DNA of 43,836 bases from an uncultured Pelagibacteraceae bacterium. GTDB taxonomy: Bacteria > Pseudomonadota > Alphaproteobacteria > Pelagibacterales > Pelagibacteraceae. Position numbers and translations under genes: made by a program. Each line of letters opens with the position of its first letter. Position 1 is the stretch's first letter. The notes beneath the pieces were generated by a model. That model did no database searches. It was not told where the DNA came from and saw only the letters and a list, made by a program, of their open reading frames with translations. Below, piece by piece: positions 15,031-32,582 of the stretch. The stretch is from the NCBI GenBank assembly GCA_902617975.1, contig CACMYV010000006.1:1-43836 (forward strand), in the 5' to 3' direction.

Positions 15031-16014
15031 TTAAGAAAATTTTGTTATCAAGGATTTTAAATGTTTATCTGTGACGCCACAACAACCCCCAATAATTTTT
15101 ACCTGATCGTCTATTAACGCGGAACACTTATCAACAAATTCAATTTCATTTTCAGTTATTAATGCTTGCATAGTACTTGTGTCAAATTTATGAATTTCTG
15201 GATAGAACATAATTGGCCCATTCCAATTTGATTTTAAAACTTTCATTCCCTCTTTTGTATCAATAAACCAACTATGCATAATGCCATAAACATCTCCACC
15301 GATAGATTTGAGTGAATTAATTATTTCAGCGAAATTTATAATTTTATCTTCAGGAAGGAATTTTGGCTCATCAGGATATTTTAAAGGGTCATATATAATA
15401 GATCTCTCTTTTTCAGCTCTAAAATTTCTACCTACTACGGTTTCATCAAACTTACTTATGCAGCAACTTAATCCAACCCAGACAGGTAAACCTGTTTCCA
15501 AAGCTGCATTAAGCAAAATTTTAGCATGGTCAATATCTAAAAGCATTTCAAGAATAAGCACTTCGACTCCCTCTTCTTTTAATACCTTCGCTTGTTCTTT
15601 ATAATTTTTTTCTTCTTTTGCAAATGATGGTACAAATTTTGTGTCAGGTCTAAATTCATTTTCAGCCAAAGCTAAATATGTTGACATGCTTCCAGCAATT
15701 TTAATTTTTTTTCCAGAATTTTTGACTGCTTGTCTTGCTAACTTAACTGTATCAATGTTAATTTTTATAGTCTGATCTCCTAAATTTGAAGGCTCAAGAC
15801 AATGCCTTGCAGTTCCAAAAGTATTGGTTGTTATCATATCACATCCGGCGTTTATATGACTTTCGTGTACTTTGATTACTATTTCTGGTGAGAAAACATT
15901 TGCTAAACCAGAAAAAGCTGGTCCCATAGTTCCGCCAAGTCTCTGAATTTCTGAACCTGTTCCACCATCTAAGAAAACTTTTTTTTTTGATTTCAATAAT
16001 TCATTAATATCCAT
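15031..16014 (-). CDS. Homocysteine S-methyltransferase family protein (copy 2)
   Basis: This 327-residue paralogue of the protein at 12476-13387 has DGGTGSEIQRLGG at the start, NAGCDMITTNTFGT near 60, and IIGGCCGVT near the C-terminus. As in copy 1, the GxNC zinc motif is altered, here to GIMHSW, so two cysteines remain and a His takes the neighbouring position. It contains an extra loop (about residues 195-225) compared with copy 1. Its ATG overlaps the upstream EamA stop (TAATG), so it is translated with a transporter, an amidase and an alcohol dehydrogenase. It may accept a methyl group from an imported methylated compound. Confidence 0.83.
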   Translation of the reverse strand: MDINELLKSKKKVFLDGGTGSEIQRLGGTMGPAFSGLANVFSPEIVIKVHESHINAGCDMITTNTFGTARHCLEPSNLGDQTIKINIDTVKLARQAVKNSGKKIKIAGSMSTYLALAENEFRPDTKFVPSFAKEEKNYKEQAKVLKEEGVEVLILEMLLDIDHAKILLNAALETGLPVWVGLSCCISKFDETVVGRNFRAEKERSIIYDPLKYPDEPKFLPEDKIINFAEIINSLKSIGGDVYGIMHSWFIDTKEGMKVLKSNWNGPIMFYPEIHKFDTSTMQALITENEIEFVDKCSALIDDQVKIIGGCCGVTDKHLKSLITKFS

Positions 16015-19570: not shown

Positions 19571-20503
19571 ATGAAAATTTCATCTGAAAAAACAGATCTA
19601 AAAAAAACATATTTAGCAATTGCTACAATGCTCTTAGCAATTTTATGTATAGATCTTTACATGGTTATTATTAAATTTTTAGGTGATGAATACTCAATAA
19701 TTCAATTAACTTTATTTAGAAATGTAGCAGCAATTATACCTTTGTTATTATTGATCTTATTCACAAATGAATTTTCAACAATATTCAAAAACTTAGGAAA
19801 TAAGTTTTTGATATTGAGTTGCTTGAGAGGAATATGTTTTCTTTCTATGAATGTATTCATTTTTATCTCAGTAGTGAATCTGGAATTTGCAACAGCAATG
19901 ACGCTAACCTTTTCGTCACCTTTCTTCATAGTAATACTATCAATAATTTTATTGAGTGAAAAAATTGGTATTTACAGATGGTCAGCAGTTATAATTGGTT
20001 TTGTTGGTGTGGTTATGATAATGAAACCAACAAGTGAAATTTTTAGTTTGTACTCAATTTTTCCAATTCTAACCGCTATAGCATGGGCTTTCACTGTCAT
20101 AATTTTAAAATTCATTCAAGGCAATCATTCAACTGCAAAAATTCAGTTATACACATTAATATTTAATGTCATTGGTGGTTTACTTTTATTTTTTGTAACT
20201 ACAGGACATGTTGAAATTAAAAATTTTAAAGATTTTATTTTGATGACAATGACTGGAGTTTTGGGTGGTACAGCAGCAATATTGTTTATTTATTCTTACC
20301 GTTTAATTTCAGCAAGTAAAATAGCTTCATTTGAGTATCTTGGTATACCGTCATCTTTTATTCTTGGTTGGATTTTCTTTAGTGAAGCTCCATGGAGCCA
20401 ACTATTTCCTGGAGTAATAGTAATTATTTTTGCTGGTATGATTATTATATGGAGAGATAATATTAAAAAGAAATCAATAGAAGGTAATAAGCAAATTTAT
20501 TGA
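19571..20503 (+). CDS. EamA/DMT superfamily transporter
   Basis: This 310-residue protein has about ten hydrophobic segments in two EamA repeats. ATAMTLTFSSPFFIV and IGIYRWSAVIIGFVGV mark the end of the first repeat. The same segments occur in the protein at 32641-33588, so the two are paralogues. The substrate is unknown. It is a single-gene unit on this strand. Its last 7 bases overlap the end of the convergent proV gene (20497-20503), an unusually tight arrangement. Confidence 0.87.
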   Translation: MKISSEKTDLKKTYLAIATMLLAILCIDLYMVIIKFLGDEYSIIQLTLFRNVAAIIPLLLLILFTNEFSTIFKNLGNKFLILSCLRGICFLSMNVFIFISVVNLEFATAMTLTFSSPFFIVILSIILLSEKIGIYRWSAVIIGFVGVVMIMKPTSEIFSLYSIFPILTAIAWAFTVIILKFIQGNHSTAKIQLYTLIFNVIGGLLLFFVTTGHVEIKNFKDFILMTMTGVLGGTAAILFIYSYRLISASKIASFEYLGIPSSFILGWIFFSEAPWSQLFPGVIVIIFAGMIIIWRDNIKKKSIEGNKQIY

Positions 20504-21543
20504 TTTGATCTCATAGATTTCATTACTATTACTCTATCTATCTCACCTAATAGCTTTCCACTTTCATTACAAACTACTGGATAAGTTTTATCATTATCAA
20601 TTAGCCTATCTATTAAGTTTTCAATTTTAGAATTATCTAAAATATTATCTTTTCCATTCTCAAATAAATTTTTTGTTTCATTGCAGCACTCAGTTCTCAT
20701 GACTTTGCCTGCACTTAATACTTTATATTTAGGAACATCTTCACAAAAATCTTTAACATATTGATCTTTCGGATTAGATACAATTTCTTCAGGTGTACCT
20801 ACTTGAGAAACTTCTCCATCTTTCATAATTGCTATGTGGTCTCCCATTTTAATTGCCTCTAAAAAGTCGTGAGTTATAAATACCATAGTTTTTTGAAGCT
20901 TTTCTTGGATCTTTAAAAGCTCATCTTGCATCTCTCTTCTAATCAAAGGATCCAATGCTGAAAAAGGTTCATCAAAAATTAATATTTCAGGATCCACAGC
21001 TAGTGCTCTTGCAAGTCCTACCCTTTGCTGCATACCTCCAGATAATTCTCTTGGATAATTATTATGCCAACCATCTAAGCCAACCATTTTTAAAACTTCC
21101 ATTGACTTTTCTGTTCTTATATCTTTTTTTGTTCCCCTTACTTCTAATCCATAACCAATATTTTCTAGTACTGTTCTATGAGGAAATAAACCAAAATGTT
21201 GGAAAACCATGCTCATTTTATTTCTTCTTAATTCTAATAATTCACTTGCACTCATTTTTGTAACTTCAACATCATCCATTTTCACTATGCCAGCTGTTGG
21301 TTCAATCAATCGCGAAATACATCTAACTAGTGTTGATTTTCCACTACCAGATAATCCCATTACTACAAATGTTTCACCTTTTTGAATTGAGAAACTGACA
21401 TCTTTTACAGCAACAACGTGTCCTGTCTTTTCTTGAACTTCCTTAATACTTAAATTTTTATCAAGGTTTTTAATAATTCTTTTTTCGTCTGGTCCAAATA
21501 ACTTCCATATATTTGTACAGGTGATTTTTTGTTCTACAGACAT
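20497..21543 (-). CDS. proV: Glycine betaine/proline-type ABC transporter ATPase
   Basis: This 348-residue ATPase is of the ProV/OpuAA type. Walker A is GLSGSGKST, followed by LVRCISRLIEPTAG, which is characteristic of this subfamily. The signature is LSGGMQQRVGLARAL and Walker B is ILIFDEPFSALDP. The N-terminal lead-in (residues 1-45, WKLFGPDEKR) is also ProV-like. A C-terminal region with only a short CBS-like stretch (YPVVCNESGKLLGEIDR) replaces the full tandem CBS pair of larger ProV proteins, so the osmosensing module may be reduced. It is transcribed divergently from proW, with 77 bp between them. Confidence 0.92.
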   Translation of the reverse strand: MSVEQKITCTNIWKLFGPDEKRIIKNLDKNLSIKEVQEKTGHVVAVKDVSFSIQKGETFVVMGLSGSGKSTLVRCISRLIEPTAGIVKMDDVEVTKMSASELLELRRNKMSMVFQHFGLFPHRTVLENIGYGLEVRGTKKDIRTEKSMEVLKMVGLDGWHNNYPRELSGGMQQRVGLARALAVDPEILIFDEPFSALDPLIRREMQDELLKIQEKLQKTMVFITHDFLEAIKMGDHIAIMKDGEVSQVGTPEEIVSNPKDQYVKDFCEDVPKYKVLSAGKVMRTECCNETKNLFENGKDNILDNSKIENLIDRLIDNDKTYPVVCNESGKLLGEIDRVIVMKSMRSNQ

Positions 21544-21570
21544 TTTTAATAAATAATACTACCCCAAAAA

Positions 21571-21599
21571 TAGACAATATTTTACTTTAAATGTAAAAT
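21571..21599 (+). promoter_or_regulatory. Promoter for proW
   Basis: TAGACA (21571-21576) and TAAAAT (21594-21599) are 17 bases apart, each matching 5 of 6 consensus bases. The predicted start is about 15 bases before the proW ATG. Confidence 0.6.
21579..21599. repeat. Inverted repeat in the proV-proW divergent region
   Basis: ATTTTAC (21579-21585) and GTAAAAT (21593-21599) form 7-bp arms around a 7-base centre. The repeat covers the spacer and the -10 box of the proW promoter, so a bound regulator could block it. On the minus strand the same sequence gives TTTACA, a possible -35 box for proV. Confidence 0.4.
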
Positions 21600-21620
21600 T
21601 ATTTATTTTAATTTGCTAAT

Positions 21621-23741
21621 ATGGCTACTAGAACTGATTTAATAAATAAATCAAATCAATCGAAAAACATAATAACTTATGTAATTATTGGAGTTGTTTT
21701 TTTGGTAGCACTCTGGCTATCTACTCAAAGTGAAGGGCCTTCAAAATTTCCTAAAGAAGTCACTGATAAATTTACATTTACAGCTTGGGTGAACGATGGA
21801 GAAGATTATTTAAAAAAAAATTACAGATGGGTCACTAAAATTATAGCAAGCTATATAAAAGAAACTTACTATTTTTTAGAAGACTTTTTGCTAGAGTCTC
21901 CTTGGATTTTAATAGCAGCAATAATTGTAATACCTTGCATAATTGCGGGTGGTTTGCGATTGGGAATTTACTCTTCTTTTGTAGTTTATTTTTGGGGAGC
22001 TACAGGAATGTGGGAACCATCCTTACAAACAGTGGCATTGATGGGTCTGTCAGTTTTATTATGTGTATTTTTTGGATTTATACTGGGTGTCTTGTGTTCA
22101 CAGAGTAATAGATTTGAAAATTTCATGAAGCCAGTACTAGATACTATGCAAGTAATGCCAGCATTTGTATATTTGTTCCCAGCATTATTTTTTTTTGGGA
22201 TAGGAGGCGCGCCAGCAATATTGGCTACCATGATATATGCAATGCCTCCAATAATAAGATTGACAAACACTGGTATAAGACAAGTGCCAGCTCAAACTAT
22301 TGAGTCTGCAACTTCCTTTGGTTCAAGTAAACTTCAATTGTTATTTAAAATTAAAATTCCATTATCTTTACCAAGTATAATGATGGGTATTAACCAAGTA
22401 ATAATGATGGCATTGGCATTAGTGGTTCTTGCATGCTTTATAGGTGCCGAAGGTATTGGTGGCCAAGTTTGGCAAGCAATAAGAAGATTGGATGTTGGTT
22501 GGGCAATGGAAGGTGGGCTATGTATTTTATTTATGGCGATAATGTTTGATAGATTTAGTTTAGCGTTTAGTAAAGATGTAGAAAGACTTCCTTCAGATGT
22601 TCAAAGATTTTATTTACTTCCACAAAGTTGGGAAAAATATCAAATCGCAAAAATTTTAGAAATGCCGTTAAGTTTTGGAAATAAGATTTTAAAAATCATA
22701 TGTCAAACAGTTACATCTACTATAGCAATAGTATTTAGAGTTTTGGTTTCAATTTTTAATAAATCTACAGCTGAAAACATCGGTGAATTTATTAGCAAAA
22801 GATATTATGTTATTCCCTATTTTTTAGTTTTATTTCTAATTGCATTTATAGATCATTACTTTTTAGAAATAGGAACATTTCCAAAAGAATGGAAATTATC
22901 AATAAGACAACCAATTACAAATGCAGTAGAAAGCCTGACTGTAAATCCAGGATTTATTTCTTTTGCAAAAGGTTTAAGAGCATTTGTTTATTTAAATTTG
23001 TTAAGACCTTTAGATGTTTTTCTAACTCAAATACCTTGGTGGTATACATTGGCAGTATTTTCGGCTTTAGGTTATGTAACTGTTGGAATAAGATTTGCAA
23101 TAATTACTGCAGTACTTCTTCTATTCATTGGTGCATGTGGAATATGGACACAATCAATGATAACTTTATCCTCAGTACTTGTGTCTGTAGTGCTGTGTTT
23201 TGTTATAGGAGTTCCTCTTGGAATAATTGCATCTTACAATGAAAGATTTAGAAATATTCAGAACGTAGTGTTGGATGCAATGCAAACACTTCCTTATTTC
23301 TGTTATTTAATTCCTGTTCTAATGTTTTTTGGTGGTGGAACAGTGTCAGCTGTTCTTGCAACTGTAATATATTCAATTCCGCCAATAATTCGATTAACAT
23401 CTCTAGGTTTAACACAGGTTTCTGGCACTTACTCTGAAGTATCGAGATCATTTGGTGGAACACTTATTCAAACATTAAATAAAGTTAAGTTCCCGTTAGC
23501 TATTCCAAGTTTAGTTATTGGATTTAATCAGACTGTAATTATGGCTTTTGCAATGCAAATAGTTACACCACTTATTGGTGGTAAGGGTTTAGGTTTAGAA
23601 GTATTTAATGGTCTTGCAAGATCTGATACTGGAAGAGGATTAGCAGCTGGTATCGGAATAGTATTACTGGCTATTATTATTGATAGAATTACACTTGCGT
23701 GGACTAAGAAACAAAGAGAAGCTTTAGGCTTAATAAGCTAA
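21621..23741 (+). CDS. proW: Glycine betaine/proline-type ABC permease, tandem fusion of two ProW domains
   Basis: At 706 residues this is about twice the length of an ordinary ProW/OpuAB permease. Two homologous permease domains are visible. The first has DTMQVMPAFVYLFPAL, MIYAMPPIIRLTNTG and FGSSKLQLLFKIKIPL (about residues 172-252). The second has DAMQTLPYFCYLIPVL, VIYSIPPIIRLTSLG and FGGTLIQTLNKVKFPL (about residues 551-631). Both EAA-type loops are intact, so a single chain could replace the usual homodimer. A membrane-spanning linker joins the halves. It starts from its own promoter, divergent from proV, and proX follows after 86 bp. Confidence 0.92.
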   Translation: MATRTDLINKSNQSKNIITYVIIGVVFLVALWLSTQSEGPSKFPKEVTDKFTFTAWVNDGEDYLKKNYRWVTKIIASYIKETYYFLEDFLLESPWILIAAIIVIPCIIAGGLRLGIYSSFVVYFWGATGMWEPSLQTVALMGLSVLLCVFFGFILGVLCSQSNRFENFMKPVLDTMQVMPAFVYLFPALFFFGIGGAPAILATMIYAMPPIIRLTNTGIRQVPAQTIESATSFGSSKLQLLFKIKIPLSLPSIMMGINQVIMMALALVVLACFIGAEGIGGQVWQAIRRLDVGWAMEGGLCILFMAIMFDRFSLAFSKDVERLPSDVQRFYLLPQSWEKYQIAKILEMPLSFGNKILKIICQTVTSTIAIVFRVLVSIFNKSTAENIGEFISKRYYVIPYFLVLFLIAFIDHYFLEIGTFPKEWKLSIRQPITNAVESLTVNPGFISFAKGLRAFVYLNLLRPLDVFLTQIPWWYTLAVFSALGYVTVGIRFAIITAVLLLFIGACGIWTQSMITLSSVLVSVVLCFVIGVPLGIIASYNERFRNIQNVVLDAMQTLPYFCYLIPVLMFFGGGTVSAVLATVIYSIPPIIRLTSLGLTQVSGTYSEVSRSFGGTLIQTLNKVKFPLAIPSLVIGFNQTVIMAFAMQIVTPLIGGKGLGLEVFNGLARSDTGRGLAAGIGIVLLAIIIDRITLAWTKKQREALGLIS

Positions 23742-23743
23742 GA

Positions 23744-23759
23744 CAAATAGTACTATTTG
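23744..23759. repeat. 16-bp perfect palindrome between proW and proX
   Basis: CAAATAGTACTATTTG begins 2 bases after the proW stop and ends 5 bases before the -35 box of the proX promoter. It has no spacer, so it is a better dimeric-operator candidate than a hairpin. Confidence 0.5.
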
Positions 23760-23764
23760 CGTGG

Positions 23765-23794
23765 TTTACATACCAATACATTTTGATCTAAAAT
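23765..23794 (+). promoter_or_regulatory. Promoter for proX, overlapped by a terminator-like hairpin
   Basis: TTTACA (23765-23770) and TAAAAT (23789-23794) are 18 bases apart and each match 5 of 6 consensus bases. The transcript would start near 23801, with a strong GAGAGGA ribosome-binding site before the ATG at 23828. Read from proW, the stretch 23775-23799 folds into a stem (ACATTTT with AAAATGT, extendable by wobble and A-T pairs, 5-base loop) followed by T residues. Read-through from proW may therefore be weakened here. Confidence 0.55.
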
Positions 23795-23827
23795 GTGTTT
23801 TTAATTAATTAAAAAGAGAGGAAATAA

Positions 23828-24832
23828 ATGAAGTTATCAAAAAAGATATCAGCACTAATTCTTTCTGTAGCTCTGTTAATTGGAAGCTTTGGTCAAGCCA
23901 ATGCAGCCAAAAGACTTCACGCAGCTATAGCAGATTGGACTGGTGGGATAATTACGTGCGAAGTTGCCGTAGCAATTCTTGAAAGAGAAATGGGATACAA
24001 AATTAAACAAACTGTATTTCCTTCAGGAACAGGTTTATGGGAAGCAATCGCTGCAGGTGAGTTAGACTTCGCTTGCGAAAGTTGGCCAAGTTACGCTGAA
24101 GCTGACACTGTTATGTTAAAAGAGGACTTAATATACGAAGGTAAAGTCGTTGGTACATACAATGGTGATGGAAGTGTGGACTTACTTGGAACAGCAGGAA
24201 TAATCGGTATGTCAGACTACTGGATACCAAGATATGCTGCTGAGGAACTAGGTATTAAAACTTGGAAAGACTTAAATAAACACAAAGCTAAATTTGCAAC
24301 AATTGAAAGTGGTAAGAAAGGTAGACTTATTGGATGTCCAGTTGCAGGTTGGAACTGTCATGACCAAAAAAGACTTGATCTTTTAGGAATAGACTTCCAG
24401 GCTGATGAACTTGGAACAGAAGCTGCTGCTATCGCAGAAGCAAAAGCTGCTTACATGCGTAAAGAGCCATTCCTACTTTATCTATGGTCACCACATTGGT
24501 TCTTTGGTGAGTATGATATGGTTGGTGTACAACTTCCAGAACACAAAACTTGTGACAGCTTCACTGAAGCAAATAACTGGAAAGATTGCGGAACTGCTGC
24601 ATGGCCAGCAACTGGTTGGGCTAAAGATTACACGATGAACTACGGTAACCCAGCTACTTTTGCTAGTGCAGAACATGCTGATGCTAAGAAGTTCTTTGAA
24701 AAAATGTCTTTACAAAATATTGACCAAGCTAAAATGTTAGTTGAAGTTGATATTAAGAAAAGAGATGTAAAAGAAGTTGTTAATGAGTGGTTAGACAATA
24801 ATCCAGATAAATGGAAAAGTTGGCTTCCATAA
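23828..24832 (+). CDS. proX: Glycine betaine/quaternary-amine binding protein (ProX/OpuAC family)
   Basis: This 334-residue periplasmic binding protein has a clear signal peptide, with Lys-rich start, hydrophobic core and cleavage after GQANA near residue 26. Trp residues suited to an aromatic cage for a trimethylammonium group appear in ADWTGG, GTGLWEA, ESWPSYAE and LWSPHW. It passes glycine betaine, carnitine or a similar compound to the fused ProW. The gene has its own promoter and a strong Shine-Dalgarno sequence, consistent with the excess of binding protein usually needed. A strong terminator follows at 24854-24884. The downstream carnitine genes suggest a wider betaine range than glycine betaine alone. 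Confidence 0.92.
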   Translation: MKLSKKISALILSVALLIGSFGQANAAKRLHAAIADWTGGIITCEVAVAILEREMGYKIKQTVFPSGTGLWEAIAAGELDFACESWPSYAEADTVMLKEDLIYEGKVVGTYNGDGSVDLLGTAGIIGMSDYWIPRYAAEELGIKTWKDLNKHKAKFATIESGKKGRLIGCPVAGWNCHDQKRLDLLGIDFQADELGTEAAAIAEAKAAYMRKEPFLLYLWSPHWFFGEYDMVGVQLPEHKTCDSFTEANNWKDCGTAAWPATGWAKDYTMNYGNPATFASAEHADAKKFFEKMSLQNIDQAKMLVEVDIKKRDVKEVVNEWLDNNPDKWKSWLP

Positions 24833-24853
24833 TAACTTTAAAATAAATTAGAT

Positions 24854-24884
24854 AAAAAGGGCTTTGATTTTCAAAGCCCTTTTT
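24854..24884. terminator. Bidirectional intrinsic terminator after proX
   Basis: A 10-bp perfect stem (AGGGCTTTGA, 24858-24867, with 24871-24880) encloses a 3-base loop. It is flanked by an A run on the left and a T run on the right, so it can end both proX and the convergent dioxygenase gene, whose stop codon is at 24886-24888. Confidence 0.92.
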
Positions 24885-24885
24885 T

Positions 24886-26010
24886 TTATTTCTTAAGATA
24901 ATTTAATCTACCCACAATTTCATCTCTATCCATGTAATAACCTTGTAGGTGTCTGTGTCCAGAATTTGGATCAAATTCAGTTCTTCCATGAAGCACTCTT
25001 CTATTATTGAATGTATATATATCTCCTGGTCTTAGCCTAAATTTTATTTGAAATTTGTCATCGTGTAAAAGTTTTCCAAATTTATGATGAGATTTATAAA
25101 CTTTATCCATTTGATCTGGATGACAATCTAAAGCGTCCATGGTTGCAGTGCTAAATCTAACATCATTATAATCACCATCTTTTGTTAAACTTATTGCAGT
25201 GCCATAAAAGCTTCTATGAGCTTCTTGTGTGTAATCTTTGTCTCTAAACTTTAAAGGTATTGTTGTTAGCGTATCAAAAGTATCTTTATCGTTTTTCTTT
25301 AAATATTCTGCTACAGCGAAAGCATCTACTGCAGATGAGTCACCACCTTTTGCTGAATTAACTAAACAATGTAAAAATTGATACCCAGGAGGATTTTCAA
25401 ACCATGGTAAATCCATATGATTTTGAAGAGCATGAGCTGTATAAGCTGAGTTATTAGGTTTTGGTATATTTATAACTTCAAAAGGTGTTTTAAAAAATGT
25501 CTCTCTTGTATGACTAATTCTGTTTAAAACAGGGAACGCTGAATTTTTTTCTACTGGAGCATTATAAACTATTGCTATTCCTTTATAATGAAGAAGCTCT
25601 AACCATTTAACCAACCCCTCTTCAGAAGATATAATTTCATTGTGATCTATATATATACTATCAATATTTTTTTCTAAACTACTATCCCATAATTGATAAG
25701 GTGATTTGTATTCTTCGTTATTTTTAATTGTGTAACAATTTTCTCTAAGCCAACTAATATCATAATGGCTTACATGATTTCCCTCACTCCACTCTATTTC
25801 CAATTTACCATCGCTATTAAGATTATATTTTTTTGGGTTTATATTTTCTGATACATCTAAAATATTAAACATTCGATGCCTAGAATCTTTATCGTGTGCT
25901 GTAGGACAATTATCTCTAAGCCACATATAATTAAATTTACTCTCTTTTCCGTCATCCCAAATTACTTGAAGATAAGTGCCGTTTTTTGAGATTTTTGAAA
26001 TTGAGTGCAT
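24886..26010 (-). CDS. Gamma-butyrobetaine hydroxylase-like Fe(II)/2-oxoglutarate dioxygenase
   Basis: From the ATG at 26010 the protein has 374 residues; the frame extends to a TTG at 26022, which is less likely. An N-terminal GBBH-like domain shows WLRDNC near residue 30, and a TauD/TfdA-type domain follows. The Fe ligands appear as H198 and D200 (NHMDLPW) and H341 (VLHGRTEF), with R353 in GHRHLQGYYMDRDE for 2-oxoglutarate. Spacing and motifs match BBOX1-type enzymes, which hydroxylate gamma-butyrobetaine to L-carnitine. The N-terminal zinc cluster is degenerate: only C35 of the usual three cysteines is kept. Carnitine-degrading genes lie just beyond the SDR gene, which supports the call. 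Trimethyllysine dioxygenase is the main alternative. Confidence 0.82.
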   Translation of the reverse strand: MHSISKISKNGTYLQVIWDDGKESKFNYMWLRDNCPTAHDKDSRHRMFNILDVSENINPKKYNLNSDGKLEIEWSEGNHVSHYDISWLRENCYTIKNNEEYKSPYQLWDSSLEKNIDSIYIDHNEIISSEEGLVKWLELLHYKGIAIVYNAPVEKNSAFPVLNRISHTRETFFKTPFEVINIPKPNNSAYTAHALQNHMDLPWFENPPGYQFLHCLVNSAKGGDSSAVDAFAVAEYLKKNDKDTFDTLTTIPLKFRDKDYTQEAHRSFYGTAISLTKDGDYNDVRFSTATMDALDCHPDQMDKVYKSHHKFGKLLHDDKFQIKFRLRPGDIYTFNNRRVLHGRTEFDPNSGHRHLQGYYMDRDEIVGRLNYLKK

Positions 26011-26112
26011 AATCAATATCAATATAAAATAATTTAATGCTCAATTCAATTATTAGTTGACATATTAATAGTTGGAAGATTTGTTAGTTTGAATTATCTT
26101 TTAAAATTAAAA

Positions 26113-26898
26113 ATGAGCATAACCTTAAAAAATAAAAAAATAATCATATCCGCAGGAGGTTCGGGTATTGGATGGAGTTCGGCAAAAATATTTTTAGATA
26201 AAGGTGCAACAGTATATCTTTGTGATACCAATTCAACTTTTCTGAATAAATGCAAGACGCACAAGCTCAATAATAAAAAATTATTTGTATTTCAGTGTGA
26301 TGCTTCGGATGAGAACCAAGTAAGAAATTTTTTTAGCAAAATAATAAAAAAAACAAAAAAAATTGATGCTCTAATAAATAACGTTGGAATTGCTGGGCCG
26401 ACAGGGACACTTGAAAAATTAAAAAGCAAGGATTGGGAAAATACATTAAAGGTAAACGTAATTAGCCATTTTTATTTTTCAAAATATTCAATTCCAATGC
26501 TAAAAAAAAATAAAGGTGGAGCTATAATAAATTTATCATCAACTGCAGGTATATTTGGATTTCCATTAAGATCTCCTTACTGTGCAAGTAAGTGGGCTGT
26601 TGTTGGTATAACCAAAACACTGGCAATGGAACTAGGAAAATTTAAAATTAGAGTAAACGCTATTTGTCCTGGAACAATAAAGGGAGATAGAATGGGTAGA
26701 GTAATAAGGGATAAATCGAAATTTTTAAATGTTTCAAAAAAATTAATAGAAAAAGAATTTGTTTCAATGACTTCGATGAATACATGGGTCTATGAGGAGG
26801 ATATTGGAAGAATTTGTAGCTTTTTAATTTCGAATGATGCACCAAGGATATCAGGACAAGTAATTGCTGTAGACGGCAATACTTTAAGAATGCATTAG
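26113..26898 (+). CDS. Short-chain dehydrogenase/reductase
   Basis: This 261-residue classical SDR starts at the ATG at 26113; an upstream TTG at 26089 would add eight residues with no support. The nucleotide-binding motif reads SAGGSGIGWS, in place of the more usual TGxxxGIG. NNVGIAG follows, and the active site has S143 (NLSSTAG) with Y156 and K160 in SPYCASK. The C-terminal SGQVIAVDGN is typical. The substrate is unknown. Its position between the dioxygenase and carnitine dehydrogenase genes makes a hydroxy acid of that pathway, or 3-hydroxybutyrate formed from acetoacetate, reasonable guesses. It is divergent from the dioxygenase gene and convergent with the GFA gene (3 bp). Confidence 0.88.
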   Translation: MSITLKNKKIIISAGGSGIGWSSAKIFLDKGATVYLCDTNSTFLNKCKTHKLNNKKLFVFQCDASDENQVRNFFSKIIKKTKKIDALINNVGIAGPTGTLEKLKSKDWENTLKVNVISHFYFSKYSIPMLKKNKGGAIINLSSTAGIFGFPLRSPYCASKWAVVGITKTLAMELGKFKIRVNAICPGTIKGDRMGRVIRDKSKFLNVSKKLIEKEFVSMTSMNTWVYEEDIGRICSFLISNDAPRISGQVIAVDGNTLRMH

Positions 26899-26901
26899 TA
26901 T

Positions 26902-27312
26902 TTAAACTTTAATATTTTTTTCGCTTATTTCCATAAATGGAAAATGAGACTCTTTATAGTGTATGTTCTCTGCTTTATTTAAAAAACTAATATCGTCTAG
27001 TAAACCTGCATATAAATAGTATTTTTTATACTTTTCTACATAAGTTAAAATAGGAGCAGCACATTTCCCACAAAAATGTTTTTTAATTTTATTACCACTG
27101 CCACCTTCATGTTCATAAATTTTTAATTTAGACTTATCTATATCTATTGCTCCATCTCTAAGTAGTATAATTGTCATTATTCCTCCTATTTTTTTTCTGC
27201 AATCAATACAATGACAATTGAAAACTAAAGGGACTTCATCAAGCTTAACCTTAAAAGTTATATTTCCACAGATACATCCACCAGTTTTATTTATAAAAAT
27301 TTTTTCTTTCAT
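26902..27312 (-). CDS. GFA (glutathione-dependent formaldehyde-activating-like) family zinc protein
   Basis: This 136-residue protein has its ATG at 27312, overlapping the carnitine dehydrogenase stop as TGATG; a TTG one codon earlier is not needed. The zinc-binding motifs of the GFA family are present: GGCICGN, CHCIDC and FCGKCAAP. Members bind zinc and some form adducts with glutathione and formaldehyde, but most are uncharacterised. Demethylation of betaines releases one-carbon units, so a formaldehyde-related role is possible but unproven. A second GFA gene is at 32106-32582, at the other edge of the carnitine/betaine block. Confidence 0.83.
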   Translation of the reverse strand: MKEKIFINKTGGCICGNITFKVKLDEVPLVFNCHCIDCRKKIGGIMTIILLRDGAIDIDKSKLKIYEHEGGSGNKIKKHFCGKCAAPILTYVEKYKKYYLYAGLLDDISFLNKAENIHYKESHFPFMEISEKNIKV

Positions 27313-28253
27313 CAATTTCTAATTTTATTCTCATATTTTTTTCTAATTTTTAATACATCAACTAAATATTGGTCCCTAATATTTGAAAGCATATTAATTG
27401 ATTTACCTTTAGCTTGTTTTTTTGTGCCTGATATAAGTTTATAAGATAATTTATTTGTTAACTTTGGAGCTTTTAATTTTGTCCAAGGCAATTTTAAGGC
27501 TGGACCAAATTGCTTTAACATATGTTTCATTCCTGCATTACCTCCAGCAAGATGAAAGGTTAAAAAGGTGCCCATTATTGAGTATCTAAGACCTGGTCCA
27601 TCTTCTATTGCACGATCTAATTCCTGTGTTGTTGCATAATTTTCATTAATAATATGTAGACCCTCTCTCCACAATGCCTCTTGAAGTCTATCCGATAAAT
27701 AACCTGGTAATTCTTTTTTGAGCATGATTGGCCTCATTGAGATTGATTTGTAATATTTGTTTGCATCTGAAAGAAACTTTCTTGTAGTTTTTTTTCCAGG
27801 AACTATTTCAACTGCTGGCAATAAATACGCTGGATTAAATGGATGTCCAATTATGCCTCTTTGAGGATTTTTACACTTAGAAAAAATTTTAGAGGGCAAA
27901 AGTCCTGACGAACTTGAAGAAATAATTACATTTGATTTTACATATTTAGAGATTTTTTGGATTAAATCAGTTTTAACTTTATAATTCTCTAATACACTTT
28001 CTTGAACAAAATTCACATTTGAAAGAGCCTTTTCCAAAGAATTAAAGAATTTTAAATTTTTAATTAAAATTTTTTTTCCAAAAAGTTTTTTTATACTTTT
28101 TGAAGTTCTTTTTATTTCTTTTAAAACATAGTTTTTGAGATTTTTGTTTTGATCATATGCATGAACAATTTTGTTGTGAGCTAAATTTCTTATTATCCAG
28201 CCAGTCCCTATGACACCAGTTCCAACTATTCCTACAGTTTTAATTTTTGACAT
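27312..28253 (-). CDS. lcdH: L-carnitine dehydrogenase-like 3-hydroxyacyl-CoA dehydrogenase family enzyme
   Basis: This 313-residue protein has an N-terminal Rossmann domain, GIVGTGVIGTGW, and the family motif GHPFNPAYLLPAVEIVPG. Carnitine dehydrogenases (CdhA/LcdH) are about 310-320 residues when not fused to a thioesterase and act on free carnitine, oxidising it to 3-dehydrocarnitine with NAD. The next gene upstream, overlapping by one base (TAATG), encodes the DUF849 enzyme that uses dehydrocarnitine, and a separate thioesterase is nearby. This is the cdhA-cdhC-cdhB set described in Pseudomonas. 3-Hydroxybutyryl-CoA dehydrogenase is the alternative, made less likely by the neighbours. Confidence 0.83.
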   Translation of the reverse strand: MSKIKTVGIVGTGVIGTGWIIRNLAHNKIVHAYDQNKNLKNYVLKEIKRTSKSIKKLFGKKILIKNLKFFNSLEKALSNVNFVQESVLENYKVKTDLIQKISKYVKSNVIISSSSSGLLPSKIFSKCKNPQRGIIGHPFNPAYLLPAVEIVPGKKTTRKFLSDANKYYKSISMRPIMLKKELPGYLSDRLQEALWREGLHIINENYATTQELDRAIEDGPGLRYSIMGTFLTFHLAGGNAGMKHMLKQFGPALKLPWTKLKAPKLTNKLSYKLISGTKKQAKGKSINMLSNIRDQYLVDVLKIRKKYENKIRN

Positions 28254-29140
28254 TACTTGTGTTTTACAAGCTTTAATTTTTCTCTTGTTTCTGAAGGTGA
28301 CATAATCTCTACACCAAGATCTGTGACGATCCTTATAGCTTTCTCAACTAATTGAGGATTTGTTGCCAATTTTCCTTTGGATAAATATAAATTATCCTCT
28401 AAACCAACTCTTGGGTTACCTCCCATTACTACAGTTTGAGCAACATATGGCATTTCGTTTTTAGATATTGCAAAACCTGACCATATACCTTCTTTAGGCA
28501 TTATATCTTTCATCGCCTGCATAGCTAATGGTGTTGCCGGTGCACCCCATGGAATTCCTAAACACATTTGAAAAAGAGGTGGATCACTTAATAATCCCTC
28601 TTTATATAATTGAGCACCAAACCACATGTTTCCTAAATCAAAAGCTTCTATTTCAGGTTTAACTTTTATTTCTTGAAGTTTTTTTGCAGCTTTTCTTAAA
28701 TCGTTAGGTGTGTTGACTGTGATAACTGAACTATCTCCAAAATTTAAGGTTCCGCAATCAAGTGTGCATATTTCTGGAAGAAATTGTTCTGCATTAGCAA
28801 TTCTTTCCATTACATTTGCCATGTCTGTCATTGGACCAAAGTCTAAAGGGTTCTTGCCTTGGCCGATATCTAAATCACCACCCATGCCTGTCGTGAGATT
28901 AAGAATTACATCAGTTTCAGATGATCTCACTCTGTCAACCACTTCTTTATAAAGCTCGAGTCTTCTACTTGGAGTTCCATCTTCCTCTCTGACATGGATA
29001 TGGGCAATTGCAGCACCAGCTTTAGCAGACTCTATTGCTGCTTTTGCAATTTGCTCTGGAGTTTTAGGTAAATCAGGATGTTTACTTGCTGTATCACCAG
29101 ATCCTGTAACTGCACATGAGATGAAGACCTTATTGTTCAT
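28253..29140 (-). CDS. BKACE (DUF849) beta-keto acid cleavage enzyme, probable dehydrocarnitine:acetyl-CoA enzyme
   Basis: This 295-residue TIM-barrel protein shows the DUF849 start (VFISCAVTGSGD), the zinc-binding HxH (H47 and H49 in AHIHVRE), LNLTTGMGG and GGNPRVGLEDN. BKACE enzymes combine a beta-keto acid with acetyl-CoA to give a new CoA ester and acetoacetate. In carnitine degradation the member CdhC makes betainyl-CoA and acetoacetate from dehydrocarnitine. Next to a carnitine dehydrogenase gene and opposite a hotdog thioesterase gene, this is the best fit. It is the first gene of its minus-strand operon, 59 bp from the divergent CitE-like gene. Confidence 0.86.
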   Translation of the reverse strand: MNNKVFISCAVTGSGDTASKHPDLPKTPEQIAKAAIESAKAGAAIAHIHVREEDGTPSRRLELYKEVVDRVRSSETDVILNLTTGMGGDLDIGQGKNPLDFGPMTDMANVMERIANAEQFLPEICTLDCGTLNFGDSSVITVNTPNDLRKAAKKLQEIKVKPEIEAFDLGNMWFGAQLYKEGLLSDPPLFQMCLGIPWGAPATPLAMQAMKDIMPKEGIWSGFAISKNEMPYVAQTVVMGGNPRVGLEDNLYLSKGKLATNPQLVEKAIRIVTDLGVEIMSPSETREKLKLVKHK

Positions 29141-29199
29141 TTTTATTTCTAGTAAAATATAATATCATATCATTAACAATTATAAGAAATAAAAATTTA

Positions 29200-30060
29200 A
29201 TGGACTTAAATAAACTAAGGGTTAGACGTAGTTTTATATTTACACCAGGTCTTCAACCAGAGATGTTTCCAAAAGCCTTGGCTTCAGGAGCTGATATGGT
29301 TTGTATAGAATTAGAAGATGGAATTGCCATGAAAGATAAAGACGAGGCAAGGAAAAATACTATTGAAGCATTAAAGTCACTAGAAGTAAAAAATGATGTT
29401 GAATTAGTTGTTAGATTAAATTGTCAAAGAACTAAAAATGGTCTTTTAGACTTAGAAGCTATTGCTTCAAATAAACTAAAGGTTAAAGCCATCATGTTGC
29501 CGAAAGTTAAAACACCTGATGAAATTACATTTATTGATGATATGCTTACTGATTGTGGTTTAGATACTGATCTTCATGTTATAATGGAAACTAATCAAGC
29601 TCTTGAAAGTATTTATGATATTGCACATTCTAGCGATAGAATAGTTGCTTTATATTTTGGTGGAGAGGATATGGCAGCAGAATTGAGAGTGGAAAACAAA
29701 TTAGAGAATTTAGTTTATGCAAGATCAAGGTTAGTTCATGCTGGTGCAAGTAAAGGAGTTGATGTTATTGATGTTCCTTATTTAAATTTAGAAGATATGG
29801 AAGGAATGAAAAAAGAAGCACAGTTTGTTAAAAACTTAGGTTTCACTGGGAAAGGATCTATTCATCCAAAGCAAATAAGTATTTTAAATGAAATTTTTAC
29901 TCCAACAGAGGAAGAAATAAGTAAAGCTAAAAGAATTATGGATCAATTTAAAAAAGCAAACACAGGTTTAGTTGTAATAGATGGTAAATTGATAGAAAGA
30001 CCTGTTTTACGAGAGATGCAAAGAAAATTGTTAGTAGCAAATAAAATAAACAAAAGCTGA
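29200..30060 (+). CDS. HpcH/HpaI (CitE-like) aldolase/lyase family protein
   Basis: This 286-residue protein is of the CitE/malyl-CoA lyase type. RRSFIFTPGLQPEMF at the start, IELEDGIAMKDKDEAR (metal and CoA-site region), YFGGEDMAAELR and KGSIHPKQ are characteristic. Such enzymes cleave or hydrolyse malyl-CoA, methylmalyl-CoA or citramalyl-CoA-type esters. Its role next to the carnitine genes is not part of the described cdh pathway, so it may process acetyl-CoA/glyoxylate or a CoA ester made nearby. It leads a plus-strand run with the thioesterase (4 bp) and GMC oxidoreductase genes. Confidence 0.84.
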   Translation: MDLNKLRVRRSFIFTPGLQPEMFPKALASGADMVCIELEDGIAMKDKDEARKNTIEALKSLEVKNDVELVVRLNCQRTKNGLLDLEAIASNKLKVKAIMLPKVKTPDEITFIDDMLTDCGLDTDLHVIMETNQALESIYDIAHSSDRIVALYFGGEDMAAELRVENKLENLVYARSRLVHAGASKGVDVIDVPYLNLEDMEGMKKEAQFVKNLGFTGKGSIHPKQISILNEIFTPTEEEISKAKRIMDQFKKANTGLVVIDGKLIERPVLREMQRKLLVANKINKS

Positions 30061-30064
30061 TAAA

Positions 30065-30532
30065 ATGTCATTTCATTTGGCTTCGAGAAAAATAATAAAA
30101 GATTGGACAGATTATAATGAGCATATGAACATGGCTTATTATGTTTTAATTTTTGATGAGGCATGGGAAACAATGCTTAATAAATTTGATATGGGCGGAG
30201 CTAAAGCACAAATAAATAAAAGAAGTACAATGGTGGTTGAAACAAGAACAACTTACGACAATGAAGTTAAAGAAAATGAAGAAGTTGATGTTTATTGCAC
30301 TTTCTTTGATCATGATAAGAAAAGATTACATTTAAAATGTGAGATGATCGAAAAAAAAACAGGAAAACTTGCTGCAACTACAGAAAGTATATCTCTTTAT
30401 ATCGATCTTGAAAAAAGAAAAGTTACAGAATTTGAAGAAGATAAAATAAAAATTATGGATGATTTTATTAACGAAAATAAAAATAGTTTTAAATCAGATA
30501 AATTAGTACTTGCAGATAAACTTAAAAAGTAA
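30065..30532 (+). CDS. Hotdog-fold thioesterase, probable betainyl-CoA thioesterase
   Basis: This 155-residue protein has the 4-hydroxybenzoyl-CoA-thioesterase-like start DWTDYNEHMNMAYYV, whose Asp/Asn-His region is the active site of this family, and a later LHLKCEMIEKKTGKLAATTE strand-helix-strand pattern. It resembles the thioesterase (CdhB) that is separate in Pseudomonas or fused to carnitine dehydrogenase in other bacteria. That enzyme releases glycine betaine from betainyl-CoA. The next gene, a choline-dehydrogenase-like oxidase, starts directly after its stop, so both may feed the same glycine betaine pool. Confidence 0.78.
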   Translation: MSFHLASRKIIKDWTDYNEHMNMAYYVLIFDEAWETMLNKFDMGGAKAQINKRSTMVVETRTTYDNEVKENEEVDVYCTFFDHDKKRLHLKCEMIEKKTGKLAATTESISLYIDLEKRKVTEFEEDKIKIMDDFINENKNSFKSDKLVLADKLKK

Positions 30533-32113
30533 ATGAATTTTGACTACATAATTGTTGGAGCTGGTACAGCAGGATGTGTTCTTGCAAATAGATTAAGTGA
30601 AAATGGGAAATTTAATGTTGCCTTGTTTGAGGCAGGTGGATCTAGTGATATTTGGAAGGTTAATATGCCTTTGGCAATTTTGTATGCAATGCATGATCCA
30701 AAATATAATTATAAATATTATTCGGAACCAGAACCTAATTTAAATAATAGGAGATTATTTTGCCCAAGAGGAAAAATGATAGGTGGTTGTTCTGCACATA
30801 ATGGGATGGTTTATGTTCGAGGAAATAAAAACGACTATGAGAGATGGGCCTCATTTGGCTTGAAATCATGGTCTTATGAAAATGTTTTACCATTTTTTAA
30901 AAAAATTGAGACGTGGTCCGAAGGAGAGAATGAATTCAGAGGTGGGAAAGGAATTTTACCAGTAAATCAATCCAAAAACAAAAATCCGTTGTTTAGTGCT
31001 TTTATTAATGCTTCAGTCGAAGCAGGGTATAAAAAAAATAAAGATATGAACGGAGAAGATCAAGAGGGATTTGGAATGTATGATATTACAATTCATAAAG
31101 GTCAAAGGGCTAGCGCTTCTAAATATTATCTAGAGCCAGCAAAAAAAAGAAAAAATTTAAAAGTTTTTACTAATTCTTTTGCTGAAAGGATTATTTTTGA
31201 GGGAAAAAAAGCAGTTGGAATAGAAGTAAATATTAAAAATAAAGTCACAAAGGTTTACGCTAAGAAAGAAGTTGTTTTAAGCGGGGGTTCAATCAATTCA
31301 CCACAACTATTGATGTTATCAGGTGTAGGACCTGAAAAAGATTTAAAAGATAAAGGAATTAATGTTGTACACTCGTTAGAGGGAGTAGGTCAAAATTTAC
31401 AAGACCATTTAGAAACCTACATTCAGCAAGAATGTAAAACTAAAGATACGCTCTATTCTTATGTTAACAAAATAAATATGCTTAAAATTGGTATTCAATG
31501 GTTTCTTTCAAAAAGTGGTCCATGTTCTACTTCATTTTTAGAAGCAGGTGGTTTCTGCAAATCTTCAGAAGACAAAAGCTATCCGAATATTCAATTTCAT
31601 TTTTTTCCAGCATTTGTAATCGATCATGGATTAGTTGATCCTGACAGACATGGTTATCAATTACATGCAAGTTTGAACCAACCTAAAAGTAGAGGACATA
31701 TTAAATTAAATAGCTCAAATCCATACGATTACCCAAAAATTCAATTTAATTATTTAAAAGATGAATATGATTTAAAAGAAACAATTAAGTGTGTTCGTGT
31801 AGCTAGAAAGATTTTAAGTCAAGATTCAATGAAACCTTACGCTGGAAAAGAAATAGGTCCAGGTGAAAGTGCAACTGATGATGAACAAATAACCGAGTAT
31901 ATTAGGTCAAAAGCCGAAACAGCTTATCATCCATCCTGTACATTAAAAATGGGAGTGGACAAAATGGCAGTAGTTGACGAAAAATTGAAAGTTCATGGTT
32001 TAGAAAATTTAAGAGTTGCAGATGCCTCGGTTATGCCAGAGATTACAAGTGGTAATTTAAATGCACCTACTTTAATGATAGGTGAAAGAGCAGCAGATTT
32101 TATCCTTAATTAG
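30533..32113 (+). CDS. GMC-family oxidoreductase, choline dehydrogenase-like
   Basis: This 526-residue FAD enzyme has the ADP-binding start YIIVGAGTAGCVLANRL, the GMC signature GGCSAHNGMVYVRG, and the C-terminal HPSCTLKMG with H466 and SGNLNAPTLMIGE with N510. The His/Asn pair corresponds to the catalytic pair of choline oxidase and dehydrogenase. It would oxidise an alcohol, with choline to betaine aldehyde the most attractive reaction here. Many GMC proteins act on other alcohols, so the substrate stays open. Its last 8 bases (32106-32113) overlap the end of the convergent GFA gene. Confidence 0.87.
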   Translation: MNFDYIIVGAGTAGCVLANRLSENGKFNVALFEAGGSSDIWKVNMPLAILYAMHDPKYNYKYYSEPEPNLNNRRLFCPRGKMIGGCSAHNGMVYVRGNKNDYERWASFGLKSWSYENVLPFFKKIETWSEGENEFRGGKGILPVNQSKNKNPLFSAFINASVEAGYKKNKDMNGEDQEGFGMYDITIHKGQRASASKYYLEPAKKRKNLKVFTNSFAERIIFEGKKAVGIEVNIKNKVTKVYAKKEVVLSGGSINSPQLLMLSGVGPEKDLKDKGINVVHSLEGVGQNLQDHLETYIQQECKTKDTLYSYVNKINMLKIGIQWFLSKSGPCSTSFLEAGGFCKSSEDKSYPNIQFHFFPAFVIDHGLVDPDRHGYQLHASLNQPKSRGHIKLNSSNPYDYPKIQFNYLKDEYDLKETIKCVRVARKILSQDSMKPYAGKEIGPGESATDDEQITEYIRSKAETAYHPSCTLKMGVDKMAVVDEKLKVHGLENLRVADASVMPEITSGNLNAPTLMIGERAADFILN

Positions 32114-32582
32114 TCTCGAGATATTCTTTATATCTATCTAAACTTTCTTTAGGCCAAGCAATTTTTGGATCATACATTTCATCATAGCAAATATTTTTGT
32201 CTGCAATATCTATCCATGGATCCTTATCTTTTACAAATATATGTGCTTGAGGTGGAAAGTCTTTCGGTTTCAAAAGAGTCTTTGTTCTAACTGTTAATCT
32301 TCTAATTGCAAATTCATAATCGGCATAAATATAAACCCCACATTTTTTACAAAAGTAATGAGTACATTTTTTCCCACTACCTGCAATCAATTCAGCTTTT
32401 AAAAGTTTACCACTAATTTTAAAAGAATCTTCAAAAATGCTAGTATTAATTACATAAGATGATCCAGTTAATTTTTTACAATCTAAACAATGGCAGACCT
32501 GAGTAAAAAGAGGTTTACTATTTATTGAATACTTTACACTCCCACAAATACATCCACCATAAATTGGTTCAAAATCACTCAT
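32106..32582 (-). CDS. GFA family zinc protein (second copy)
   Basis: This 158-residue protein has the same zinc motifs as the one at 26902-27312: GGCICGSVKY, CHCLDCKKLTG and FCKKCGVY. The core is CENP-V/GFA fold and the C-terminal 50 residues are longer than in the first copy. No reaction can be assigned with confidence. It is a single-gene unit, overlapping the GMC gene tail to tail and divergent from an EamA gene 58 bp away. Confidence 0.83.
   Translation of the reverse strand: MSDFEPIYGGCICGSVKYSINSKPLFTQVCHCLDCKKLTGSSYVINTSIFEDSFKISGKLLKAELIAGSGKKCTHYFCKKCGVYIYADYEFAIRRLTVRTKTLLKPKDFPPQAHIFVKDKDPWIDIADKNICYDEMYDPKIAWPKESLDRYKEYLETN

Follow-up and report, generated by a model that had tools for sequence, protein, structure and literature searches.

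A SAR11 gene block that probably imports quaternary amines and converts gamma-butyrobetaine and carnitine into glycine betaine

The window, the whole stretch of 43,836 nucleotides that was analysed (contig CACMYV010000006.1), derives from a member of SAR11 (Pelagibacterales), ocean bacteria with tiny genomes. The initial annotation had described a compact block that carries its own importer and degrades gamma-butyrobetaine and carnitine to glycine betaine. All genes that it named were present as intact ORFs at the coordinates given below, and their families were confirmed by profile matches. At one side of the block lie a ProV-type ATPase of the betaine/choline-family ABC importers (20497..21543, minus strand; NCBIfam proV subfamily, 365.6 bits against a cut-off of 326.6), a ProW-type permease (21621..23741, plus strand) and a ProX/OpuAC-type substrate-binding protein (23828..24832, plus strand; Pfam OpuAC, 143.8 bits). 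The permease is a tandem fusion, since two BPD_transp_1 stretches occur within its 706 aa; its score of 421.5 bits with TIGR03416 (choline ABC permease; cut-off 363) is the sum of the two stretches. ProX scored far under the equivalog cut-offs for ProX (65.5 against 215) and for the choline substrate-binding protein (37.1 against 379), and its best solved chain by sequence was 4xz6.

The importer genes are followed by a BBOX-like Fe/2OG dioxygenase with TauD and GBBH-like_N domains, a proposed gamma-butyrobetaine hydroxylase (24886..26022, minus strand), and by an accessory SDR dehydrogenase (26089..26898, plus strand; adh_short_C2). An LcdH/CdhA-like protein, for which the best family was L-carnitine dehydrogenase (27312..28253, minus strand), and a BKACE of the CdhC type (28253..29140, minus strand; Pfam BKACE, 305.5 bits) come next, the BKACE stop and the LcdH start having one base in common (TAATG). 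The remaining genes encode an accessory CitE-like lyase (HpcH/HpaI, RipC-like; 29200..30060, plus strand; HpcH_HpaI 137.2 bits, RipC 238.7 against 375), a hotdog thioesterase proposed to act on betainyl-CoA (30065..30532, plus strand; 4HBT_2, 84.3 bits) and a GMC oxidoreductase of the choline-dehydrogenase subfamily (30533..32113, plus strand). Two small GFA-family ORFs, absent from the initial annotation, were also observed: one overlaps the end of LcdH (26902..27315, minus strand; Pfam GFA, 72.5 bits), and the other lies at the block edge (32106..32582, minus strand; Pfam GFA, 94 bits). The block consists of divergent units rather than a single operon, with BKACE, LcdH and the first GFA gene on the minus strand and the CitE-like, thioesterase and GMC genes on the plus strand.

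The window BKACE grouped with the BKACEs of cdh-type carnitine operons with a branch support of 99/99 in a midpoint-rooted tree of 61 of the 111 BKACE rows. The 44-row set in this tree was composed of 35 LcdH-linked BKACEs, eight that were not LcdH-linked and the window BKACE. Among the 93 BKACEs more than 50% identical to that of the window or of Caballeronia, 50% being a chosen grouping limit, an LcdH-like gene was located within 6 kb of 82 (23/28 from SAR11, 8/13 from alphaproteobacterial SAGs and 51/52 others). The BKACE of L102, which is cut by a contig end and accompanied by LcdH, was left out of these counts as too short. The loci from the phylum search extend only 1.5 kb past BKACE, so that an absence of LcdH there may mean that the gene lies outside. 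Adjacency of LcdH alone is no proof of function, because LcdH-like genes also occurred near 5 of the 17 more distant BKACEs. Asp at window position 16 (TG.GD), which we take to be analogous to Glu14 of Kce, was present in 88/93 near BKACEs and in 0/17 distant ones. The residue was not accepted as a strict marker for BKACEs acting on dehydrocarnitine, given that it is missing in five of the 93 despite LcdH nearby. Placement, context and motif give strong grounds for a predicted CdhC-type activity, by which 3-dehydrocarnitine and acetyl-CoA would yield betainyl-CoA and acetoacetate. They also make it very improbable that BKACE and the dehydrogenases act on another beta-hydroxy acid and resemble cdhCAB through ancestry only. 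That explanation would suit the promiscuity of BKACEs as a family, described in an excerpt of PMC4922564, and the genus mate G009 (92% complete), which retains BKACE and BBOX; G009 is one of four BKACE genomes in which LcdH was not found, together with G020 and G026 of the genus and G081 of the sister family.

The window LcdH received 330.3 bits for L-carnitine dehydrogenase, below the cut-off of 414 that the Caballeronia control passed with 614.6; the LcdHs of two tested relatives also remained under it (361.5 and 371.6). Its sequence matches positions 1-308 of PRK07531 (carnitine 3-dehydrogenase), and the thioesterase matches positions 346-475, the portion after the dehydrogenase. PRK07531 is presumably the type of the bifunctional carnitine 3-dehydrogenase/thioesterase of Sinorhizobium. 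Both halves of the rhizobial enzyme thus find a match in SAR11, but as two separate genes, and neither half reaches the fused-family cut-off. For this bifunctional enzyme of rhizobia (Sinorhizobium), Bazire 2019 is cited in an excerpt of PMC12482172. Family and context strongly support LcdH as the enzyme that would oxidise carnitine to 3-dehydrocarnitine. Release of glycine betaine from betainyl-CoA may be attributed to the thioesterase with moderate confidence. Within the genus this gene hardly tracks BKACE, being found in 24/28 genomes with BKACE and 27/45 without, and no match above threshold was obtained in the 38 sister-family BKACE genomes.

The proposed step ahead of carnitine depends on the dioxygenase, which would hydroxylate gamma-butyrobetaine to L-carnitine. 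It scored 313 bits with the GBB dioxygenase profile (cut-off 414.75), a cut-off that the Pseudomonas canadensis protein passes with 446.6 and the Burkholderia ambifaria protein fails with 405. The TmpA profile was close behind at 275.8 (cut-off 400), and TmpA was the best solved chain by phmmer. As in human BBOX1 and Pseudomonas BBOX, the domains, the Fe ligands, the 2OG Arg and aromatic residues at the cage positions are present; in BBOX1 numbering we take the Fe ligands to be His202/Asp204/His347, the 2OG residue to be Arg360 and the cage to be positions 177/181/194/366. The cage reads F/F/Y/Y, as in 11/11 BBOXs of cdh operons and compared with Y/W/Y/Y in human BBOX1, and is uninformative on the substrate because 18 TmpA-like marine proteins are also F/F/Y/Y. 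Differences from human BBOX1 were also evident. At the positions of its N-terminal Zn site, presumably C38/C40/C43/H82, the window protein shows C/T/gap/H, so two cysteines are missing, and none of the 44 near rows or the 21 sister-family rows retains the residue at position 43; Asn292 is replaced by Ser in SAR11 dioxygenases and by Ala in the 11 cdh-operon BBOXs.

The low profile score, the proximity of TmpA and the Ser at position 292 would suit a dioxygenase acting on another trimethylammonium compound, for instance the TmpA substrate 2-trimethylaminoethylphosphonate or a longer betaine, in which case the block would start at carnitine. Such a role seems unlikely. In a thinned tree of 34 of 97 rows, a split with support of 100/98 set the dioxygenase apart from TmpA and the TmpA-like proteins encoded at sister-family loci and placed it on the side of the cdh-operon BBOXs and human BBOX1, the exact place of the human row being unsure because of its very long branch. 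TmpA was accordingly rejected as the identity of this protein. No HD-domain (TmpB-like) protein was found among the block proteins scanned, and the dioxygenase accompanies BKACE in 64/66 genomes. Gamma-butyrobetaine, the substrate assigned in the initial annotation, is probable on the basis of the tree position and the shared cage, but the score is under the curated cut-off.

Across 121 related genomes, BKACE (66), LcdH (63) and BBOX (71) come and go together. LcdH was detected in 62 of the 66 BKACE genomes (p=2.3e-28 over the 121 genomes, a value that is overstated because these genomes are related). In 40 loci of relatives, taken from 20/28 BKACE genomes of the genus and 20/38 of the sister family, BBOX accompanied BKACE in all 40 and LcdH in 36. 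The expected retention of the gene set in relatives was thus seen for these enzymes but did not extend to the thioesterase, nor to the importer: 7 of 20 genus-mate loci retain BBOX and BKACE but carry a different ProXWV in its place. ProV, ProW and ProX do give the block an importer, as had been claimed, but its association with the enzymes varies to that extent. Outside the marine SAG/MAG groups, 38 named loci, drawn from 80 representing the best 80 of at least 595 relatives, carried LcdH in 38, a thioesterase in 36 and BBOX in 11. Their identity to the window proteins was 53-58% for BKACE, 37-47% for LcdH and 24-34% for the thioesterase.

These named Pseudomonas and Burkholderia loci show BKACE followed by LcdH and the thioesterase, with BBOX nearby in the 11 mentioned and ProW/ProV in some. 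An annotated Caballeronia plasmid likewise carries, in a row, a choline-type substrate-binding protein, BKACE, L-carnitine dehydrogenase and a thioesterase. In the carnitine operon of P. aeruginosa, a substrate-binding protein, a BKACE (CdhC), a carnitine dehydrogenase (CdhA) and CdhB similarly lead to glycine betaine. This operon, caiX-cdhCAB-hocS, is given in an excerpt of PMC5806209, and an excerpt of PMC12482172 credits the last step in P. aeruginosa to DhcAB, not to a thioesterase. The SAR11 block differs from the cdh operon by its divergent units and its extra SDR, CitE-like, GMC and GFA genes, the first two having already been recognised as extras in the initial annotation. A CdhR-type regulator was not found among the block proteins scanned. 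The core from carnitine through 3-dehydrocarnitine and betainyl-CoA to glycine betaine is borne out by LcdH and BKACE and less firmly by the thioesterase; it is kept together in many relatives and matches the Pseudomonas/Burkholderia cdh operon.

A compact block of this kind is not new, as some Pseudomonas loci join cdhCAB-like genes with BBOX and ProW/ProV, and a genomic island of Arctic SAR11 was published in August 2025 (PMC12421898). According to an excerpt of that paper, the island contains a betaine ABC importer, BBOX, alcohol dehydrogenase, carnitine dehydrogenase, BKACE, aldolase, thioesterase, choline dehydrogenase and a DMT transporter, as found here; it differs in a second BBOX, in HADH, GPDP and SMR genes and in having ALDH and LGL inside the island. 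If its legend gives the gene order, that order equals the window order from the alcohol dehydrogenase on, the likeness being one of gene lists alone. The excerpt interprets the island as serving glycine betaine uptake and production and links it to high latitude. The gene set is not only polar, because a similar set is present in SAGs bearing name prefixes of a tropical/subtropical survey; these prefixes call into question a purely polar role of the Arctic island.

Taken together, the SAR11 block very probably makes glycine betaine from carnitine, and likely from gamma-butyrobetaine, and would take up quaternary amines. The acetoacetate formed by BKACE may be re-activated by an acetoacetate-CoA ligase encoded elsewhere in the genome, after which thiolase would give two acetyl-CoA, a net gain of one. 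This ligase, missed by the initial annotation, was found in the host genome with 757.6 bits (cut-off 520.9). Counted only above the curated cut-off, since related ligases give a weak family match in 121/121 genomes, it occurred in 76/121 genomes and in 0/14 control genomes. The co-occurrence from which its link to the block is drawn amounts to 61/66 genomes with BKACE against 15/55 without, and in 32/38 sister-family BKACE genomes the ligase lies within 10 kb of BKACE; a concrete fate is thereby suggested for the second BKACE product. A CoA transferase was considered as an acetoacetate route and set aside, as PF01144 had no match in the host genome (77% complete) and the ligase was found instead.

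Glycine betaine could be kept as an osmolyte, or its methyl groups could be removed by an S-methyltransferase-family enzyme and DMGDH/sarcosine-dehydrogenase-type proteins. Genes of the S-methyltransferase family, possibly BHMT though no curated cut-off was reached, lie on the same contig as the block, and two FAO_M proteins are encoded in the genome. The block may instead serve osmoprotection, glycine betaine being taken up and made as a compatible solute with carbon gain secondary. This is the chief reading of the Arctic island in the excerpt of PMC12421898; it would suit a betaine/choline-family importer and would need the same enzymes. We regard it as possible but doubtful, as the ligase tracks BKACE in a manner fitting carbon recovery, and the S-methyltransferase-family genes and FAO_M proteins also stand against it. 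If part of the SAR11 species does convert carnitine and gamma-butyrobetaine to glycine betaine, these compounds would form a substrate pool from which the group could draw an osmolyte, methyl groups and carbon.

The assignment of the GMC enzyme as choline-dehydrogenase-like was upheld by the PRK02106 subfamily score (748.7 bits, cut-off 605), although the betA equivalog score was under its cut-off (677.3 against 732.1). The carnitine route does not include this enzyme, which may supply choline-derived glycine betaine to the same pool. The CitE-like gene occurred in 11/20 genus-mate loci, the identical 11 that carry this ProXWV. Within the genus the SDR was found in 26/28 genomes with BKACE and 0/45 without. 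It might provide the same BKACE with substrate as an additional 3-hydroxy-acid dehydrogenase, acting for example on D-carnitine. The island would then use both enantiomers (or a second betaine), with acetoacetate recovered by its own ligase, which would make the pathway more complete than in the cdh operons seen here; this proposal is speculative and has a low probability. A simple replacement of LcdH by the SDR had been considered for the alphaproteobacterial SAG loci L098, L099, L100 and L113, where BKACE and SDR occur with no LcdH nearby; its strong form was dropped because a genome search located LcdH (53-54% identity) elsewhere in three of these four genomes. In the same search, three other genomes gave LcdH matches of 43% identity (L103) and 68% identity (L087) and a weak match only (L091).

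ORF checking and domain/family profile scores revealed that all genes claimed by the initial annotation within 20497–32113 of the window were present as intact ORFs and belonged to the families named. Two small ORFs of the GFA family, absent from that annotation, could also be located inside the block (26902–27315, overlapping the end of LcdH) and at its end (32106–32582). The genes were arranged as several divergent units, BKACE and LcdH overlapped by one base, and the block was flanked on either side by EamA-type transporters. The block is very probably functional as proposed, in that LcdH, BKACE, and the thioesterase would convert L-carnitine successively to 3-dehydrocarnitine, betainyl-CoA plus acetoacetate, and glycine betaine; a preceding conversion of gamma-butyrobetaine (GBB) to L-carnitine by BBOX is probable. 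The window comprises contig C6 (43,836 bases) in full, and the SAR11 (Pelagibacterales) host genome (1.07 Mb, 77% complete) contained one BKACE only.

The carnitine-to-betaine block of SAR11 is real and conserved. The comparison covered 121 genomes, 73 from the own genus and 48 from a sister family; BKACE was found in 66, LcdH in 63, BBOX in 71, SDR in 32, and the thioesterase in 51. Conservation in relatives, named at the outset as a check, was evident, as LcdH accompanied BKACE in 62/66 genomes and BBOX in 64/66, compared to 1/55 and 7/55 genomes without BKACE, respectively; since the genomes are incomplete and related, co-occurrence p values overstate this association. SDR tracked BKACE in the own genus (26/28 BKACE genomes vs 0/45 others); such tracking was absent in the sister family (5/38 vs 1/10). 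The thioesterase tracked BKACE poorly in the own genus (24/28 with BKACE, 27/45 without) and was found in none of the 38 sister-family BKACE genomes. BKACE was not found in 45 of the 73 genus genomes, indicating that the block is optional. One genus mate (G009, 92% complete) retained BKACE and BBOX (L051:5885–11190), but neither LcdH nor SDR nor the thioesterase reached the threshold there, and a 3-hydroxyisobutyrate-dehydrogenase-like gene was located near BBOX instead.

Among the best 80 of 595 BKACE relatives, from which the named loci were drawn and which by title comprised 29 SAR11, 13 alphaproteobacterial SAGs, and 38 others, LcdH was present in 24/29, 8/13, and 38/38 BKACE loci, respectively; the 38 others carried the thioesterase in 36 and BBOX in 11, and the closest BKACEs outside marine SAGs/MAGs were those of Pseudomonas, Burkholderia, and similar bacteria (53–58% identity). 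A Caballeronia plasmid was annotated with a choline-type SBP, BKACE, L-carnitine dehydrogenase, and thioesterase in a row, with a GlxA-family regulator upstream, and a Rhizobium plasmid with BKACE and carnitine 3-dehydrogenase. The BKACE tree (61/111 sequences used, midpoint root, long branches for some) placed the window protein inside a mostly LcdH-linked set of 44 rows (35 linked, 8 not; branch 99/99), which adjoined the Pseudomonas/Burkholderia group. Of 110 BKACEs, 93 were >50% identical to the window or Caballeronia protein; Asp at window position 16 (TG.GD) occurred in 88/93 of these vs 0/17 of the more distant ones, and an LcdH-like gene lay ≤6 kb away in 82/93 vs 5/17.

LcdH scored 330.3 bits against the L-carnitine dehydrogenase family (cut-off 414; Caballeronia operon gene 614.6), and the thioesterase matched the part of PRK07531 that follows its dehydrogenase. 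According to excerpts of PMC12482172, a single Sinorhizobium protein both makes dehydrocarnitine and hydrolyses betainyl-CoA, and the final step in P. aeruginosa is assigned to DhcAB.

The dioxygenase contained GBBH-like_N and TauD domains. Its best family was GBB dioxygenase (313 bits, below the cut-off of 414.75), followed by TmpA (275.8) and trimethyllysine dioxygenase (203.1). This cut-off is strict, because of two BBOXs beside cdhCAB-like genes, the one in Burkholderia ambifaria also misses it (405) and the one in Pseudomonas canadensis passes (446.6). With residue numbering and roles as in the human enzyme, alignment revealed that the Fe ligands, the 2OG arginine, and the aromatic cage F/F/Y/Y were retained, whereas Asn292 was replaced by Ser (Ala in the 11 cdh-operon BBOXs) and two Zn cysteines were lost. 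The cage was present in 11/11 cdh-operon BBOXs, yet also in 18/18 marine proteins resembling TmpA, which acts on 2-trimethylaminoethylphosphonate. The tree (34/97 rows used) placed the dioxygenase on the BBOX side, apart from TmpA and the sister-family TmpA-like proteins (100/98), and GBB is the probable first-step substrate.

The window-type ProXWV, together with the CitE-like gene, was present in 11 of 20 genus-mate loci, while another ProXWV stood in its place in seven (ProX about 25%, ProW about 37%) and only a ProV-like gene in two. Of the block's components, the importer is therefore the exchangeable one, and neighbouring genes do not reveal its ligand. Of the initially proposed GBB/carnitine-to-betaine block with its own importer, the conserved carnitine-to-betaine block stands and the GBB step is probable, but the importer is not a fixed component. 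One genus mate that lacked the CitE-like gene carried, between the thioesterase and GMC, genes for a TauD dioxygenase and an HD-domain protein (L036:13454–14824), an arrangement that looks like exchangeable cassettes.

Acetoacetate is a product of BKACE chemistry (Kce reaction, excerpt of PMC4922564). An acetoacetate-CoA ligase gene could be identified on another contig of the own genome (C13:5757–7706; 757.6 bits, cut-off 520.9), and PF01144 CoA transferase was not found in this 77% complete genome. The ligase passed the cut-off in 76/121 genomes, own included, and in 0/14 control genomes; it was present in 61/66 BKACE genomes vs 15/55 others. It lay ≤10 kb from BKACE in 32/38 sister-family BKACE genomes, as at L058:3105–5045 (741.2 over 520.9), and shared a contig with BKACE in 0/25 own-genus genomes having both. 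Among the matches listed in the open-access literature, no paper spelling out the SAR11 pathway with this ligase was found. The sister-family locus L058 (1446–3088 and 9574–10944) also held a gene resembling TmpA (347.1 vs 400), a neighbouring gene weakly similar to TmpB (47.1 vs 300), and, in the same stretch, the DMSP lyase gene DddP (787.8 over 600), perhaps a wider methylated-osmolyte hub.

Candidate genes for glycine betaine use, by family membership, are those of the S-methyltransferase family (homocysteine/betaine methyltransferase-like) and FAO_M (DMGDH/sarcosine dehydrogenase type). Two of the former lay in the window 1.6 kb apart (12455–13387 and 15031–16014, the latter matching the family in two separate stretches), and a third lay elsewhere in the genome, as did two FAO_M genes; no curated, function-specific cut-off was reached by any of the three S-methyltransferase-family genes. 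The window also contained the DMSP demethylase gene DmdA (1775–2938; 527.5 bits, above the cut-off of 410) with a thiolase immediately downstream (2962–4086).

The block is not new in kind. According to PMC12421898, half of the 16 SAR11 genomes examined from the Arctic carry a similar island of 17–20 genes, which includes a betaine importer, CHDH, ALDH, CDH, BBOX, and BKACE; the legend also gives ADH, class II aldolase, acyl-CoA thioesterase, DMT, and others. The window block is much like this island; we infer that its SDR corresponds to the ADH and its CitE-like gene to the aldolase. That source reports the arrangement in 0/18 earlier single-contig SAR11 genomes and links it to high latitude, and an excerpt of PMC12636525 mentions carnitine metabolism for offshore SAR11 genera. 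Among the best 80 of 595 BKACE relatives, a similar gene set was observed in SAGs prefixed AG-894 and AG-899 (L075, L114, L077), prefixes borne by Pelagibacter cells of the GORG-Tropics set (excerpt of PMC12416821), and in loci with MED and BS30m in their titles, presumably Mediterranean and Black Sea. The set is therefore not only polar.
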